From Thermoplasmata archaeon (lineage in GTDB: Archaea > Thermoplasmatota > Thermoplasmata > Lutacidiplasmatales > UBA184): a DNA stretch of 38,985 bases. A program made the position numbers and the translations under genes. The stretch is taken from positions 1-38,985 of the forward strand of contig JASHQX010000139.1 of assembly GCA_030038895.1 (NCBI GenBank), read 5' to 3'. Below, piece after piece: positions 6,479 through 35,348 of this stretch (its first letter is position 1; each line of letters opens with the position of its first letter). The notes beneath the pieces are model-generated. The model did no database searches, was not told where the DNA came from, and worked only from the letters and a program-made list of their open reading frames with translations.

Positions 6479-6551
6479 GGGCTCGTGGTCCAGCGGTTAC
6501 GACGTCGCTCTCACACAGCGAAGGTCGCCGGTTCGAATCCGGCCGAGCCCA
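6479..6551 (+). tRNA. tRNA-Val (anticodon CAC)
   Basis: GGGCTCG...CGAGCCC acceptor stem, TCGCT-CTCACAC-AGCGA anticodon arm (CAC), GCCGGTTCGAATCCGGC T-arm, discriminator A; no intron. Confidence 0.95.
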
Positions 6552-23011: not shown

Positions 23012-25018
23012 GTGACGACGATGACCGATCGTCCGGACGTCGTGGTGCTCGGATGTGGCATCTTCGGCGCGGCACTGTCGTGGCACCTCGCGGTCCGGCG
23101 ATCGCAGACGGTGTGCACGATCGATCTGGATTGGCGCGATACGGGTCGGGGGGCCACCGCCGCCAGCGCGGGCATCCTGACCTATCCGGGCTGGGACCCG
23201 TGGGACCTCGACGTCGTGCGCCGCACCCGCGAGGAGTACCGCGCGCTCTGCGACGGGTCGGGGGTGGGAGAGTTCCGACCGAACGGGGGACTCCGGCTGA
23301 CCGGCTGCGAGGAAGGCGCCGTATGGATCGATCGAATCCTCCGGGTTCTCGTGCGAAACGGCGTCGAGGCCGAGAGGCTCGACAGGAAACAGGTGGACGC
23401 GCTCTTGCCCGGAGGGGGACCTGAGGGGATCCAAGCCGCCCTATTCACCCCGGGAGACGCCGTCTTCTCAACCGCCGGCGTTGCTTCCGCTTACATCCGC
23501 GGTGCGACTCGCGTCAGAGCGGAGTTCGCGCGTACTTCGGCGCCACCCAGGATACTTCGTTCGGGTGGCCGGTGGCAGGTGGAGCTCGGGAGCCGCACGA
23601 TCGACTCCGGGGCACTCGTCCTCGCCTGCGGGGCCTGGACGAAACGGATCCTCGAAGGTCTGGGTTGCCCGCTCCCGATGGCCCCGTTCCGGGCCCAGGC
23701 CTGTCGCCTACGGCCCCGGCCTCTGCTAGCGCCGTTCCCAACGATCCACGACATCGATCTCGGCCTCTACGTCCGCCCGGCCGCCGAGGGCCGGCTGCTC
23801 GCCGGCGACGGTACTGAGAGGGTCGAATCCGACCCGGACCGGGTCGACCGACGGGCGGATCTGGGAACTCTCGAGCGGATCGTCACGGATGTAGGCGCCC
23901 TGTTCCCCGGAACGGATTCTTTCGCTGTCGAGCATGGCTGGGCCGGGGTCTGCGTCGCATCGCCCGACCGGTACCCCCTGGTAGGTCCGGTCCCGGGCGC
24001 GCCGAGACTCTTCATCGCGACCGGGTTCAACGGGTTCGGGGCCATGCGGGCCGGCGGACTGGCCGGCCTTCTCGCCGAGGGCATCGTCGATGGAGCGTGG
24101 GAGGGCCTGGCGCCGGCCAATCCCGGGCGTTTCCCGGAACCGATTCTTCCCTTCGCGCCCCAACCCGAATTCCCTCTCGAATCCGTCGGGGAGGCCGAGT
24201 ACGCGCTCGGCCCCACGGTGTCGGCGGTGACCGTCACTTCCGCTCCCCTTTCCCTCTTCTCGGAAGAGGCGTCCTATCGGTCCCTTCGCTCCCCTATCGA
24301 ACTCGAGGGCCTCTGCCTGTCTTCGCTTTCCGAGTGGTTCGACCCATTCTTGCCTCTCTTCCTGCGGGAGGCGCTGAGGACGCACGGAACGGTCGAAGTG
24401 GCGGAGGTCGAGGGAGGGGTCCGCGGGATCTATCTCCAGGGGACGAGCGAAGGGGTCGGGTCCCTGTTCACCCGGACACGTTGGATCGCCGAGCACTTTC
24501 TCTCGCGGCTGGGGCCCCAGGGCGCCTACAGTGAAGGGGCCTGGATACCCGGAGGAGATCCGATCGACATCCTCGCGGCAGACCTTCGGGACTGGCCGGG
24601 CGTCACGACCCTTCGAAACCCCGTACGGATGGCACGAGCGGAGGACCTTCCGGCGGTCCGAGCCCTCGCGCGGGAAGTCGGAGGAGCCGGCGACGATTCG
24701 TGGTTCGCTACGCTCCCCCGGCCGGAGGAGACTCTCTTCCTCTGTGAGCTCGACGGCCGGGTGGTGGGAATGAGCGGGCTGACGCGGGTCGGCGCGTACG
24801 CCCGGGGCCATTCGTTCCTCGTACATCCCCGGTACCGGGGGCTGGGCATCGGGACGGATCTGCTCCAGGCCCGGATGCTCTGGCTCTCTCGGACCGGGGG
24901 ACGACAGGTGGTTTCCGAAATCTACGATGGGAACATCGCCTCCCACATCGCGGCCGGGAAGGCGGGAATGGCAGTGGTGGGACGAATGTACCACTACCGG
25001 CCGAACCGCCACTCGTAG
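23012..25018 (+). CDS. FAD-dependent oxidoreductase (DAO family) fused to a C-terminal GNAT acetyltransferase domain
   Basis: N-terminal VVVLGCGIFGAALSWHLAVRR, GATAASAGIL, LFIATGFNGFGAMRAGGLAGLLAE; C-terminal RMARAEDLPAVRALAREVGG...FLVHPRYRGLGIGTDLLQARMLWL...VSEIYDGNIASHIAAGKAGM. Confidence 0.85.
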   Translation: MTTMTDRPDVVVLGCGIFGAALSWHLAVRRSQTVCTIDLDWRDTGRGATAASAGILTYPGWDPWDLDVVRRTREEYRALCDGSGVGEFRPNGGLRLTGCEEGAVWIDRILRVLVRNGVEAERLDRKQVDALLPGGGPEGIQAALFTPGDAVFSTAGVASAYIRGATRVRAEFARTSAPPRILRSGGRWQVELGSRTIDSGALVLACGAWTKRILEGLGCPLPMAPFRAQACRLRPRPLLAPFPTIHDIDLGLYVRPAAEGRLLAGDGTERVESDPDRVDRRADLGTLERIVTDVGALFPGTDSFAVEHGWAGVCVASPDRYPLVGPVPGAPRLFIATGFNGFGAMRAGGLAGLLAEGIVDGAWEGLAPANPGRFPEPILPFAPQPEFPLESVGEAEYALGPTVSAVTVTSAPLSLFSEEASYRSLRSPIELEGLCLSSLSEWFDPFLPLFLREALRTHGTVEVAEVEGGVRGIYLQGTSEGVGSLFTRTRWIAEHFLSRLGPQGAYSEGAWIPGGDPIDILAADLRDWPGVTTLRNPVRMARAEDLPAVRALAREVGGAGDDSWFATLPRPEETLFLCELDGRVVGMSGLTRVGAYARGHSFLVHPRYRGLGIGTDLLQARMLWLSRTGGRQVVSEIYDGNIASHIAAGKAGMAVVGRMYHYRPNRHS

Positions 25019-25021
25019 GGT

Positions 25022-25040
25022 CCCCGGACTAGGTCCGGGG
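25022..25040. terminator. Bidirectional hairpin between convergent genes
   Basis: Perfect CCCCGGAC-TAG-GTCCGGGG; it contains the minus-strand stop codon and begins 4 nt after the plus-strand stop. Confidence 0.45.
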
Positions 25041-26093
25041 CGCGCCGCAGTTGGGGCAGTTCGTCGCGGTCGAGTCGATCAGGGTTCCGCAGAAACGGCA
25101 CGGGACCTTGACCGTCTCCCTGATCACCACCTGTTGAACGGGAGGCTGGTCCCGGGGGATCAGGTTGATCGCCGGCGGAGGAGCGTAGCTCGGGAGGGTG
25201 CCCGGGATCTGCGCGGTCGGGTGCCGGGGAAGCGCCGGTCGGGAGCGACGGCGCAGGGCGTAGACGATGATGAGGAGGATCACGACGACCACCACGGCGA
25301 GCACGATGACCAGTAGGATCGGGACCCCGGTGGAGGAAGCGGCCGCGGCGGGAGGAGGAGAGGCGGCGGTCAGCGGGAACGATGTCTGCATGTCGGTCAG
25401 CGTGTCGGTGTAGGTGAAGCTGGTCCCGTTCGGGTTGGTGTCCTCTTCCGAGTAAACGTACTCGAGCATGTAGCCGGTCGACGGATCGAAGTAGGCCTTC
25501 CAGTTGTACGTGGCCAAAAAGTGCCCGTAGACGTCGTTGCGAGTGTACGACCCATTCCCTTCAGCAAAGATCGTCGAGACGTACCCGGTCGGGCTGATTC
25601 GGAACGGGATCGTGTCGTCTGCCGAAACGACCGTGAACTCCGTGTTGAGAAGATAGAAGGTCGAGCCGGCGGGAAGTGTGTTGTTCATGTAGAACCAGAC
25701 GTACGGATTGGAATAGCCGGTCTGGTTGTCCGTGCCTTGCACGTAGTGGAACGTGCTCGGCGAGAACGTGAACGACCCGCTTTCCGACCAGGGGTACGAT
25801 TGGCCCTGGCTGTTGCTCCAGGTCCCGGAAGCGAGATACGCGGCCTCTACCGTTCCGTTCAGAAGAACGCCAGTGATGGCAATCGAGCCGGTATAGTTGC
25901 CATCCTCGGAGTAGCCCTCGTAATAGCCCGTGCCGTTCCCGAGGCGGGTGGATTCGGCGTAGTCGAACCGATCGCCCGGGATTGGAATGTAGTGGGTTAC
26001 GGGCGAGGCCGAACGGGCGGCCGGCACCGCCACGAGAACGATGAGCACCAACGCCACGACGGCCGCCGCAGGGAAGACGGTCCGCCGGCTCAT
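25029..26093 (-). CDS. Signal-peptide/TM protein with extracellular domain, Pro-rich tail and C-terminal zinc ribbon
   Basis: MSRRTVFPAAAVVALVLIVLVAVPAARS...; TM GVPILLVIVLAVVVVVILLIIVYALRRR; C-terminal CRFCGTLIDSTATNCPNCGAPRT. Confidence 0.75.
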   Translation of the reverse strand: MSRRTVFPAAAVVALVLIVLVAVPAARSASPVTHYIPIPGDRFDYAESTRLGNGTGYYEGYSEDGNYTGSIAITGVLLNGTVEAAYLASGTWSNSQGQSYPWSESGSFTFSPSTFHYVQGTDNQTGYSNPYVWFYMNNTLPAGSTFYLLNTEFTVVSADDTIPFRISPTGYVSTIFAEGNGSYTRNDVYGHFLATYNWKAYFDPSTGYMLEYVYSEEDTNPNGTSFTYTDTLTDMQTSFPLTAASPPPAAAASSTGVPILLVIVLAVVVVVILLIIVYALRRRSRPALPRHPTAQIPGTLPSYAPPPAINLIPRDQPPVQQVVIRETVKVPCRFCGTLIDSTATNCPNCGAPRT

Positions 26094-27628
26094 CCTCCTC
26101 CGCCCCCGAAGCCCCCGCCGCCCCAGGCGTGGACGTGACCCGGATGGGCACCGCCGATCCCGCTGAACGTCGAATAGTAGACGCCGTGGGTCACGAAAAC
26201 CGGCACCCAGAAGATGGGCGGGCGTCCCACGTAGGAGAATTGGGGCACCGGCGGGGGTTTCGCCTGGGTGGGGTCGAGCTCGTTTACGCTGCGGACGTCC
26301 ACGCCATGGATCATCCGGACGGCGAGGCAGATCAGCTCCGCCTGCGTCATTGGGCCGGTGCGCGTGCCGAGGATCTCGTACGCTTTCTCGAGGAGGTTCA
26401 ACGTCTCGTTCGCTTCGAGCACCGGGATCGAGGCGAGGATCGCGGCGGCGACGAGGGGGTAGGCGAGGTAGCTGGCGAGCCCGCGAGCGAGGATCGCGAC
26501 CTTCGTGTTCACCGTGCCGATCGGGAGCTGCGAGAGCGCTAGATACGCGCTCGAGAGCTCGGTGTCCTCGGAGGGAGAATATCCCCACGAGCCGAAGAGG
26601 GACTTGATGGAGTTGAACTGGGATGCGACCTCATCGAAGGGCCGGTTCACGACCGCGAGCAACGCCGCCGATTCGTACGAAGGGGTCACCTTCAGAAACT
26701 GGCGCAGCGGATCCATCGCGAAAGTCCCATCCGCCCGGCGTCCGAGGAGCACGATCGACGCTACGCCGAGGGCCGAGTCTCGGGGAACTTTTAGCGCGCT
26801 GACCTCTTGGATCAATGGTCGAAGGGTCGCAAGTGAGTCCGGAATCGCTCCGGGAAGGACGGAAAGGATCTCGCTAGACATGAGCCGGTTCTCAACGTTG
26901 GGGGAGAGAGAAGTGACGCCCTGATACGCCTCGAGGAACGACTGGATGCGCTGTCGGGGGTCTCCGTCCGCCTTCACCATACCGATCGAGACCGCCCAGA
27001 GGTACGACCGATCGACGGATGGCAACGACGAGGCGAGCGGGGCAAACACGAGCGCCCCACCACTGGCGATCCCGACGAGCTGTTGGGTGATCCACTTGGC
27101 CTGATCCCAGTATACCGTGAACTCCGCGTCGCCGACCCGATAGAGGGCGACGTTCAGGTCCCGCAGGGCGACGCGGCCGGGCGTGGTGATCGCGATGAAC
27201 CCGGAGTCGTAGGGTGTCATCTGGCCCAGGAGGGACTTCTTCACGAGAAGTTGCGCGAACTCCTGCTGCCGCTTCACGAGGTCCGCGTCGATCGATCGCA
27301 GGGCACTCTGCTCTTGGGCGAGACGTTCGAGGGTCGCGTGTTCCTTGTCGACCCCCTCGAGGTGAAAGAGGATGGAGTGGGTCTTTTGGGTGTCGTCGCC
27401 GATCTGGTCGGCCATCTGGGCGCGCTGTTCCGCCTCTCGAGCGAGCGCGACCTGCGCCTGCTCAAGCTGCGTTACTTCCTGCTGGAGCCCTCGGAGCTCC
27501 TCGGCCCCGAGCACGGACACCAACCCAAGCTGCTGAAGGTTGGTCACATCACCGGCGGGCAACTCCAACTGGACGCTTCGGGCATTCACCTGCCCGAGAA
27601 AGGCGGCCACCTGGTTGCACTTCGACAC
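26090..27628 (-). CDS. Hypothetical coiled-coil plus helical-repeat protein with Gly-rich C-terminus
   Basis: Coiled-coil EELRGLQQEVTQLEQAQVALAREAEQRAQMADQIGDDTQ; helical C-terminal half; tail HAWGGGGFGGGGG. GTG start at 27628 lies just after the upstream stop; longest ORF starts at 27682. Confidence 0.75.
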   Translation of the reverse strand: MSKCNQVAAFLGQVNARSVQLELPAGDVTNLQQLGLVSVLGAEELRGLQQEVTQLEQAQVALAREAEQRAQMADQIGDDTQKTHSILFHLEGVDKEHATLERLAQEQSALRSIDADLVKRQQEFAQLLVKKSLLGQMTPYDSGFIAITTPGRVALRDLNVALYRVGDAEFTVYWDQAKWITQQLVGIASGGALVFAPLASSLPSVDRSYLWAVSIGMVKADGDPRQRIQSFLEAYQGVTSLSPNVENRLMSSEILSVLPGAIPDSLATLRPLIQEVSALKVPRDSALGVASIVLLGRRADGTFAMDPLRQFLKVTPSYESAALLAVVNRPFDEVASQFNSIKSLFGSWGYSPSEDTELSSAYLALSQLPIGTVNTKVAILARGLASYLAYPLVAAAILASIPVLEANETLNLLEKAYEILGTRTGPMTQAELICLAVRMIHGVDVRSVNELDPTQAKPPPVPQFSYVGRPPIFWVPVFVTHGVYYSTFSGIGGAHPGHVHAWGGGGFGGGGG

Positions 27629-27629
27629 G

Positions 27630-28853
27630 CTATCGGTCGACAAGCGGAAATGTGGTATAAAGTCCCTCGTCGCCGAGGGCATTACGAATCTCCATCTCCA
27701 GACCGGAGGCGGAATCGCGGAGACGCACGAACGGATCCTTGGCTAACGCCTCAATCAATAGCCCGGTGAGCTGCGCCTTGCGCGACCCTCCCTCGCCGAA
27801 CCGCCGGACCCTCTCCTGTTCGATCTGCTCGTAGGCGAAGAGAAGTTCGTACAGGGAGCGGTAGACCTGGTCCTCGAGCCTTTCGGGCACCCGCTCCCGG
27901 TCGACCCCCTCCTCCTCGATCCCCTCGAGGTCGACGAAGTACACGGAGCCGTTGGGGGCCAGGACCGCGTCCTTGTCCAGCCAGACGTCATGGAAATCAA
28001 GCCCGAGGTAGCGCTCGGTCGCCGGATCGTATCGGAGCGTGCGTGCGTAGAGAGTCAGGAGGGCCACCGTAGAGCGGAGGAACGCGACCTCGAAGCGCAG
28101 GGCCTCGGCATTCGAGCGAACGCCGAATAGGTCGAAGATGTGACGGACGTCGCTCCCGATCGTGCTCCGGGAATGGAAGTAGATCCGGACGTTGGAGGGA
28201 ACAAGCCGGATCTCCTGAACGATCGGTCCGGAAAACCGTCGGTACCAGTGGAGCGTCCGAATTCGTTCCTCGAGCTCCGCCGGGAAATATGCGATCTTCA
28301 CGACCGGCGCGATCAGGAACCCGTGGAGCGAGGTCAGGTCCGCCTGCTCGGCGACGCGCATCGCGATCGTGGCGTGTTCAAGCCCTTGACCTCCGTACGG
28401 CGAACCGCGCAACCACCGTTCGCCCGTGATGATCCGCTCCGGTTCGCCGTCGATCGGGGCGACCCGGGGCTCGGCGAGCCGCCGGCGAACGTCATCGCTG
28501 TCGGTCAGGGCCGAGGCGAGAGTGCGGTCGAGGGCGCGAGATGAGAACGGATCCGTGGTCGACCCGACCCCCTTGATCGAGAGGTGGAACCCGAGCCCGT
28601 CGAGCGTCGCCACGGGCTCCGGCGAGACCGCGCCTCGATTGTCGTCCTCGAGGAACGTCCTCACCGAGGCCGGCAGCGCATCGACCAGGCCGGAGAGCAT
28701 CGGGGGGAGGTAGATCCGGTCCAAGGCCGCGAGGTCGAACCCTTCGAACCGCGGATTCGTGGTTGTTCGCGCCGGATACTCACCGAGCGTCAGGGGAAGG
28801 CCGGACAGCCTCACTCGAAGCCCCGTCGGGGGAAGAGTCCCGAGTCTCTTCAA
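27630..28853 (-). CDS. Hypothetical protein with possible kinase-like C-terminal segment
   Basis: FHLSIKGVGSTTDPF...YGGQGLEHA...YLGLDFHDVWLDKDAVLAPNGSVYFVDLEGIEE; apparently first gene of a three-gene operon. Confidence 0.75.
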   Translation of the reverse strand: MKRLGTLPPTGLRVRLSGLPLTLGEYPARTTTNPRFEGFDLAALDRIYLPPMLSGLVDALPASVRTFLEDDNRGAVSPEPVATLDGLGFHLSIKGVGSTTDPFSSRALDRTLASALTDSDDVRRRLAEPRVAPIDGEPERIITGERWLRGSPYGGQGLEHATIAMRVAEQADLTSLHGFLIAPVVKIAYFPAELEERIRTLHWYRRFSGPIVQEIRLVPSNVRIYFHSRSTIGSDVRHIFDLFGVRSNAEALRFEVAFLRSTVALLTLYARTLRYDPATERYLGLDFHDVWLDKDAVLAPNGSVYFVDLEGIEEEGVDRERVPERLEDQVYRSLYELLFAYEQIEQERVRRFGEGGSRKAQLTGLLIEALAKDPFVRLRDSASGLEMEIRNALGDEGLYTTFPLVDR

Positions 28854-35047: not shown

Positions 35048-35275
35048 CCCGAGGCCCCGGTACAGGGAAGGGTGCAATAATACTATGCTAAGCCGTATCA
35101 CGGCCTCCGTACGAGGTTGTGGGAGACCCCGCCCGATGAGCCCATTGAGAGCGGGGGATCGCCTTCCCCGGACCGGGCGTAGCGAGACGCGAATAGTACA
35201 TTTCCGAGTCGGGAGAATGATTGGCTCCATCCCTTGGAGGAGGGTTCCTACAGATGCGCATGGCCTCGAATCCTG

Positions 35276-35348
35276 AGCCGAGGGAGGGAATCGAACCCCC
35301 AGGAAACGGATCTGCAGTCCGTCGCATTAACCATTCTGCCACCTCGGC
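35276..35348 (-). tRNA. tRNA-Cys (anticodon GCA)
   Basis: Reverse complement GCCGAGGTGGCAGAATGGTTAATGCGACGGACTGCAGATCCGTTTCCTGGGGGTTCGATTCCCTCCCTCGGCT; ACGGA-CTGCAGA-TCCGT anticodon arm; discriminator U as expected for tRNA-Cys. Confidence 0.95.

Follow-up and report, generated by a model that had tools for sequence, protein, structure and literature searches.

The window analysed here, a stretch of 38,985 nucleotides from a Thermoplasmata archaeon (contig JASHQX010000139.1), carries three translationally coupled genes on its minus strand (25029–28814), which face a fourth, convergent gene across 10 bp between stop codons (Table 1). Gene 2 begins with a GTG at 27628, one base past the stop codon of gene 1 at 27630, and genes 2 and 3 have an ATGA in common at 26090–26093. 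Both junctions had been noted in an original prediction made from this DNA without database searches, and we verified them; the three coupled genes are real. The prediction also had the reading frame and stop of gene 1 right, and only its start, placed at TTG 28853 (407 aa), needed revision: homologs point to the in-frame GTG at 28814 (394 aa), and residues 1–9 counted from the TTG have a predicted local distance difference test (pLDDT) score <50 in the AlphaFold2 model. The features it had described were all found, namely the LDFHDVWLDKDAV..FVDLEG segment of protein 1 and the coiled coil, helical-repeat half and Gly-rich tail of protein 2. The three proteins, which it had called unrecognised, indeed pass no family cut-off: no Pfam or NCBIfam model exceeded its threshold on proteins 1, 2 or 3, with sub-threshold matches meaningful only for the zinc ribbon of protein 3, and no PADLOC model matched any of the four proteins.

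Table 1. Genes of the four-component module in the window.
Feature	Coordinates	Strand	Remarks
Gene 1: predicted kinase-like-fold protein, 394 aa	27630..28814	-	GTG start at 28814 per homologs
Gene 2: winged helix/coiled-coil hairpin/alpha-solenoid/disordered tail, 512 aa	26090..27628	-	GTG start
Gene 3: signal segment/ectodomain/transmembrane helix/Pro-rich linker/zinc ribbon, 354 aa	25029..26093	-	
Gene 4: DAO-type flavin adenine dinucleotide (FAD) oxidoreductase (aa 9-356) + GNAT (about aa 400-662)	23012..25018	+	
GNAT portion of gene 4	24209..25015	+	LSxxFxPF N-terminal segment, canonical GNAT domain, acyl-CoA loop YRGLGIGTDLL

Scanning an alignment of gene 1 against 84,980 species genomes yielded 71 loci, 68 of them with a complete gene 1. 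All are archaeal (Thermoplasmata, several labelled Bathyarchaeota, one Nitrososphaerales) except two labelled only ‘bacterium’. The gene-neighbourhood check proposed with the original prediction came out in its favour: all three genes occur in the same order in 63 of the 68 loci, and the remaining five either stop at a contig edge (four) or lack gene 3 (L087). The overlap of genes 2 and 3 is exactly -4 in 53 of these 63 loci, and the gap between genes 1 and 2 is +1 in 28. A whole-genome search found full-length gene 2 in 19 of 36 congeners, and every one of those loci holds genes 1 and 3 with the order unchanged. We conclude that genes 1–3 are co-conserved far beyond chance.

Clustering of open reading frames in the 10-kb flanks returned exactly one further conserved gene, convergent with gene 3, and no conserved neighbour besides the four module genes. 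In most loci this gene encodes a GNAT acetyltransferase that stands alone and is about 250 aa long. The window and five close relatives have a fusion protein instead, with a DAO-type FAD oxidoreductase in front and the GNAT at the C-terminal end. The gene was read first as an FAD oxidoreductase, which we rejected because conservation covers the GNAT part alone, the oxidoreductase domain being restricted to the window’s subclade. The GNAT domain (PF00583) scored 40.4 bits against a curated cut-off of 20.7, 27 of 27 members match Pfam GNAT, and the R/QxxGxG acyl-CoA loop reads YRxxGIGTDL in the alignment. That the N-terminal half might be a degenerate second GNAT was likewise rejected, as hhalign gave no real support.

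The GNAT was found in 53 of the 54 loci with room downstream, usually within 70 bp and typically 15–60 bp from the stop of gene 3; a profile placed it in the same convergent position at L051. Among 61 genomes, 22 carry gene 1, and 18 of these have a GNAT ortholog; the 39 that lack gene 1 lack the ortholog as well. In the four genomes with gene 1 only, contigs are short or end near the cassette. The chance of such an overlap would be about 6e-12 if genomes were independent, which related genomes are not. The GNAT is an essential-looking fourth partner, which the original prediction had overlooked.

The strongest evidence that the four components form one functional unit is that they stay together in independent arrangements, one of which fuses two of them. 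The main arrangement is gene 1–gene 2–gene 3 with a convergent GNAT. In genome G768, from the same phylum as the Bathyarchaeota-labelled G431, the order is gene 2–gene 3–gene 1–GNAT, on one strand and in one operon, and G796 follows this order as far as its contig shows, gene 2 being cut by the contig end. In G060, from another family of the class, and G083, from elsewhere in the phylum (loci L145 and L146), the part of gene 3 for the ectodomain and transmembrane helix runs straight into the GNAT as a single fusion gene, with gene 1 and a divergent gene 2 behind it. Within the core set, tree distances of the four genes are correlated with one another (0.77–0.90). The linkage of the four genes is itself near certain.

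GTDB places the window in one genus with a Candidatus Lutacidiplasma silvani genome. With 8 of the 17 near-complete congeners searched and, in a second phylum, 4 of 398 genomes carrying it, the module is accessory and has probably moved horizontally. The two records labelled only ‘bacterium’ (L032 and L092) carry the archaeal cassette at 54–66% protein identity, and their labels are probably wrong or their bins mixed. One genome (G022) has two complete cassettes, on contigs C2 and C4 (L003/L035 and L023/L045), one with the FAD-oxidase–GNAT fusion and the other with an unfused GNAT. The gene 2 products of the two share 59% and 48% identity with that of the window, and the cassettes are either paralogs or the product of a mixed assembly. 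In two genomes of another phylum, the four-gene operon lies beside a conserved gene of about 900 aa (L153 2185–4986, L154 4271–6970) that resembles an AAA-type ATPase, with small membrane-protein genes alongside.

Protein 1 had been predicted to be kinase-like, and its modelled fold points the same way, though weakly. Its AlphaFold2 model is of high confidence (pLDDT 93.7, predicted template-modelling score 0.92), and its best Foldseek matches in the PDB are the ACVR1 kinase, SelO/YdiU and the NIS synthetases DesD, AcsD, DfoC, AlcC and IucC; named viral matches are mostly protein kinases. SelO and IucA_IucC have both been assigned to the protein kinase-like (PKL) fold (PMC9758233); the SelO and IucA/IucC families (IucA_IucC being PF04183) are absent from the window’s genome. 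Scores to PKL enzymes are weak (E about 1e-3 (8e-4), probability 0.4–0.98, TM-scores 0.2–0.35). We rejected protein 1 as a relative of the archaeal RIO and APH kinases, because profile–profile comparison with hhalign showed no similarity (probability about 0.1% or less), and we therefore claim kinase kinship at fold level only.

Twelve residues (numbered from TTG 28853) are identical in 53 of 53 homologs of protein 1, the most divergent included: D70, D71, R73, K94, E145, E214, R216, D289, D293, K294, D295 and D308. The candidate catalytic residues are DDNR 70–73, K94, E145, D289/D293/K294/D295 and D308. By position, D289, D295 and D308 are spaced nearly as the HRD Asp, the catalytic-loop Asn and the DFG Asp of kinases, and K94, at the end of the third small-lobe strand, would correspond to a beta3-type Lys. 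We propose that protein 1 works like a kinase-fold enzyme, and we do not assign it to any kinase family already known.

Protein 2 (AlphaFold2 model, pLDDT 84) opens with a winged helix, assigned by eye from the order of its elements (helices 4–15, 25–33 and 42–53, wing 138–147), in which a coiled-coil hairpin (about aa 55–135) separates the wing from the helices. An alpha-solenoid (149–440) follows, then a disordered tail with HPGHVH...GGGGFGGGGG. The HxxHxH motif of this tail is present in 62 of 67 orthologs, and the protein of L146 ends in SHPGHFHGGMG. A fold search with protein 2 returned only designed alpha/alpha toroids and noise. No basic DNA-binding surface was found, the first helices having an isoelectric point of 4.6 and the whole protein one of 5.4 with a charge of -9.5. 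DNA binding was accordingly marked down, and since the winged-helix part is acidic, protein binding is more likely. Standalone winged-helix/solenoid paralogs elsewhere in the genus (L021, L024, L026 and L027) have neither the coiled coil nor the Gly-rich tail and match residues 145–448 of protein 2 (hhalign E=1.5e-27). At L024 and L027 such a relative sits immediately behind the gene of a small membrane protein (about 151 aa), and the two together may be another system of this kind, of simpler build.

Protein 3 has the anatomy that had been described for it: a signal segment, an ectodomain (about aa 30–245), one transmembrane helix (about 255–280), a Pro-rich linker and a C-terminal ribbon. 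RRRSR follows the transmembrane helix. The outer domain had been called rich in N-glycosylation sites, and shuffled sequences give 3.6 sequons where the ectodomains have 7.2, about twice the expectation. The CxxC...CxxC ligands are retained in 59 of 62 orthologs; Pfam zinc ribbons are matched by 45 of 47 members (best E 3.4e-7), the window’s member falling below the curated cut-off. The predicted topology places this ribbon, or the GNAT in the fused forms, inside the cell. The ribbon tail (VxREIVKVxCxYCG...CPxCGAP) also occurs C-terminally on proteins that we labelled PH-like by eye, in the same genome and in congeners (L220, G000:C158:3000-4900; L221, G000:C38:15300-17300; L222; L223), and it is therefore probably a general adaptor.

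Elsewhere in the window, tRNA-Val (CAC) lies at 6479–6551 on the plus strand and tRNA-Cys (GCA) at 35275–35348 on the minus strand.

The original prediction had taken the three genes for an envelope-spanning sensing or signalling module. Their strict co-conservation and lack of family matches agree with an envelope-spanning module, and the GNAT partner and the winged helix, which it missed, have to be added. A sensing or signalling role is plausible. Our preferred reading, to which we give slightly less than an even chance, is that proteins 1–3 and the convergent GNAT form one membrane-tethered sensing and modification complex. Protein 3 would set a glycosylated-type ectodomain outside the cell, and its single transmembrane helix would carry the zinc-ribbon tail inside, a place that the GNAT itself would take in distant relatives. 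The ectodomain may bind an extracytoplasmic ligand or an envelope substrate, and the cytosolic side would recruit the GNAT for acyl transfer from acyl-CoA. Protein 1, which looks like an active PKL-fold enzyme, would apply Mg-ATP chemistry (phosphorylation, AMPylation or ligation) to that target or to one of the module’s own components. Protein 2 would be the scaffold: the enzymes or the target would be held by its winged helix, coiled coil and alpha-solenoid, and metal may be bound by its HxxHxH tail.

Several observations weigh against such a complex. Sensing is read from topology alone, and the genomic context shows no target, ligand or regulated gene. Protein 1 matches no Pfam family, shows no profile similarity to RIO or APH kinases, and reaches only the low TM-scores and the E-value to kinases given above. 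L087 (9998–13789) has genes 1 and 2 and a convergent GNAT, with no gene 3 between them, and L056 has no GNAT at the locus. The patchy distribution further means that the module is dispensable.

As the main rival we consider a pathway that modifies small molecules or the envelope, in which protein 1 would be an NIS-like ATP-dependent ligase, the GNAT would acylate an amine as in aerobactin synthesis, the membrane protein would anchor or export the product, and tailoring would fall to the window’s fused FAD amine oxidase. DesD is the top Foldseek match of protein 1, with AcsD, DfoC, AlcC and IucC also listed, and the window’s clade adds a DAO domain; in aerobactin synthesis, hydroxylysine is acetylated by a GNAT-fold acyltransferase (PMC2922099). 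However, IucA_IucC (PF04183) has no match in the genome or on protein 1, which at 394 aa is well short of the about 580 aa of the matched NIS synthetases, no conserved transporter or monooxygenase lies nearby, and distant forms join the GNAT to a membrane ectodomain. We consider this pathway unlikely, and a defence or stress-immunity cassette, coupling recognition at the envelope to protein modification, distinctly more so. The latter would fit the patchy occurrence among the near-complete congeners, a probable transfer between phyla, the module being present in a second one, and an arrangement that shuffles while the genes stay together; yet PADLOC has no model for any of the four proteins, searches with protein 1 of plasmids, phages and viral contigs found nothing, and the neighbourhood has no conserved defence or integrase genes. 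Least probable by far is an ordinary operon of unrelated functions held together by shared ancestry, with the GNAT as a bystander. One archaeal order supplies most loci, so that synteny could be inherited, but the four different arrangements, including the gene 3–GNAT fusion, contradict this explanation, and both the lack of any other conserved neighbour and the correlated distance matrices speak against it.

In the library searched, the literature on Lutacidiplasmatales and on GNAT and kinase-like neighbourhoods does not describe this module. Pfam, NCBIfam and PADLOC have no family for three of its four components, and its hosts are soil archaea known largely from metagenomes alone. More tentatively than for the complex as such, we propose a new archaeal transmembrane system in which an extracytoplasmic domain directly controls, or is bound to, an acetyltransferase, which would act with a new kinase-like family on a solenoid/coiled-coil scaffold. 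This would be a dual-modification machine (acyl and ATP-derived) for signalling or envelope modification, unlike two-component or Ser/Thr-kinase receptors. Protein 1, if active, would represent a new branch of the kinase-like fold, and the fusion of GNAT and ectodomain would show directly that an archaeal membrane sensor can drive acylation. The rearranged and fused versions indicate which proteins to test together.

Protein 1 resembles the PKL superfamily (Pfam clan CL0016; SelO, IucA/IucC and canonical kinases) in its predicted fold, at weak scores, and in the beta3-type K94, the candidate catalytic-loop Asp D289, the metal-type D295 and the DFG-like D308, all invariant and near-canonically spaced. 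It differs in having no sequence match to any member, an acidic EDDNRG loop in place of the Gly-loop, a TGExWLRGSPYGGQG segment at the expected alphaC region and (x)DVWLDKD in place of HRD. The NIS siderophore synthetases (DesD, AcsD, IucC) share with the module a weak fold match to protein 1 and, in aerobactin synthesis, a GNAT-fold partner, whereas protein 1 is much smaller and without PF04183, and siderophore genes are missing from the neighbourhood. The C-terminal half of the module GNAT passes the PF00583 cut-off and carries the acyl-CoA loop of GNAT acetyltransferases; it is set apart from them by an extra conserved N-terminal segment (LSxxFxPFL...GGEV...FTRS), and by being a dedicated partner of genes 1–3, membrane-tethered by fusion in L145 and L146. 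With archaeal membrane receptors such as two-component sensor kinases, finally, the module has in common the topology of an ectodomain, a single transmembrane helix and a cytosolic output. It contains no histidine-kinase domain, and its output is instead a zinc ribbon or a GNAT together with a separate kinase-like enzyme and a scaffold.

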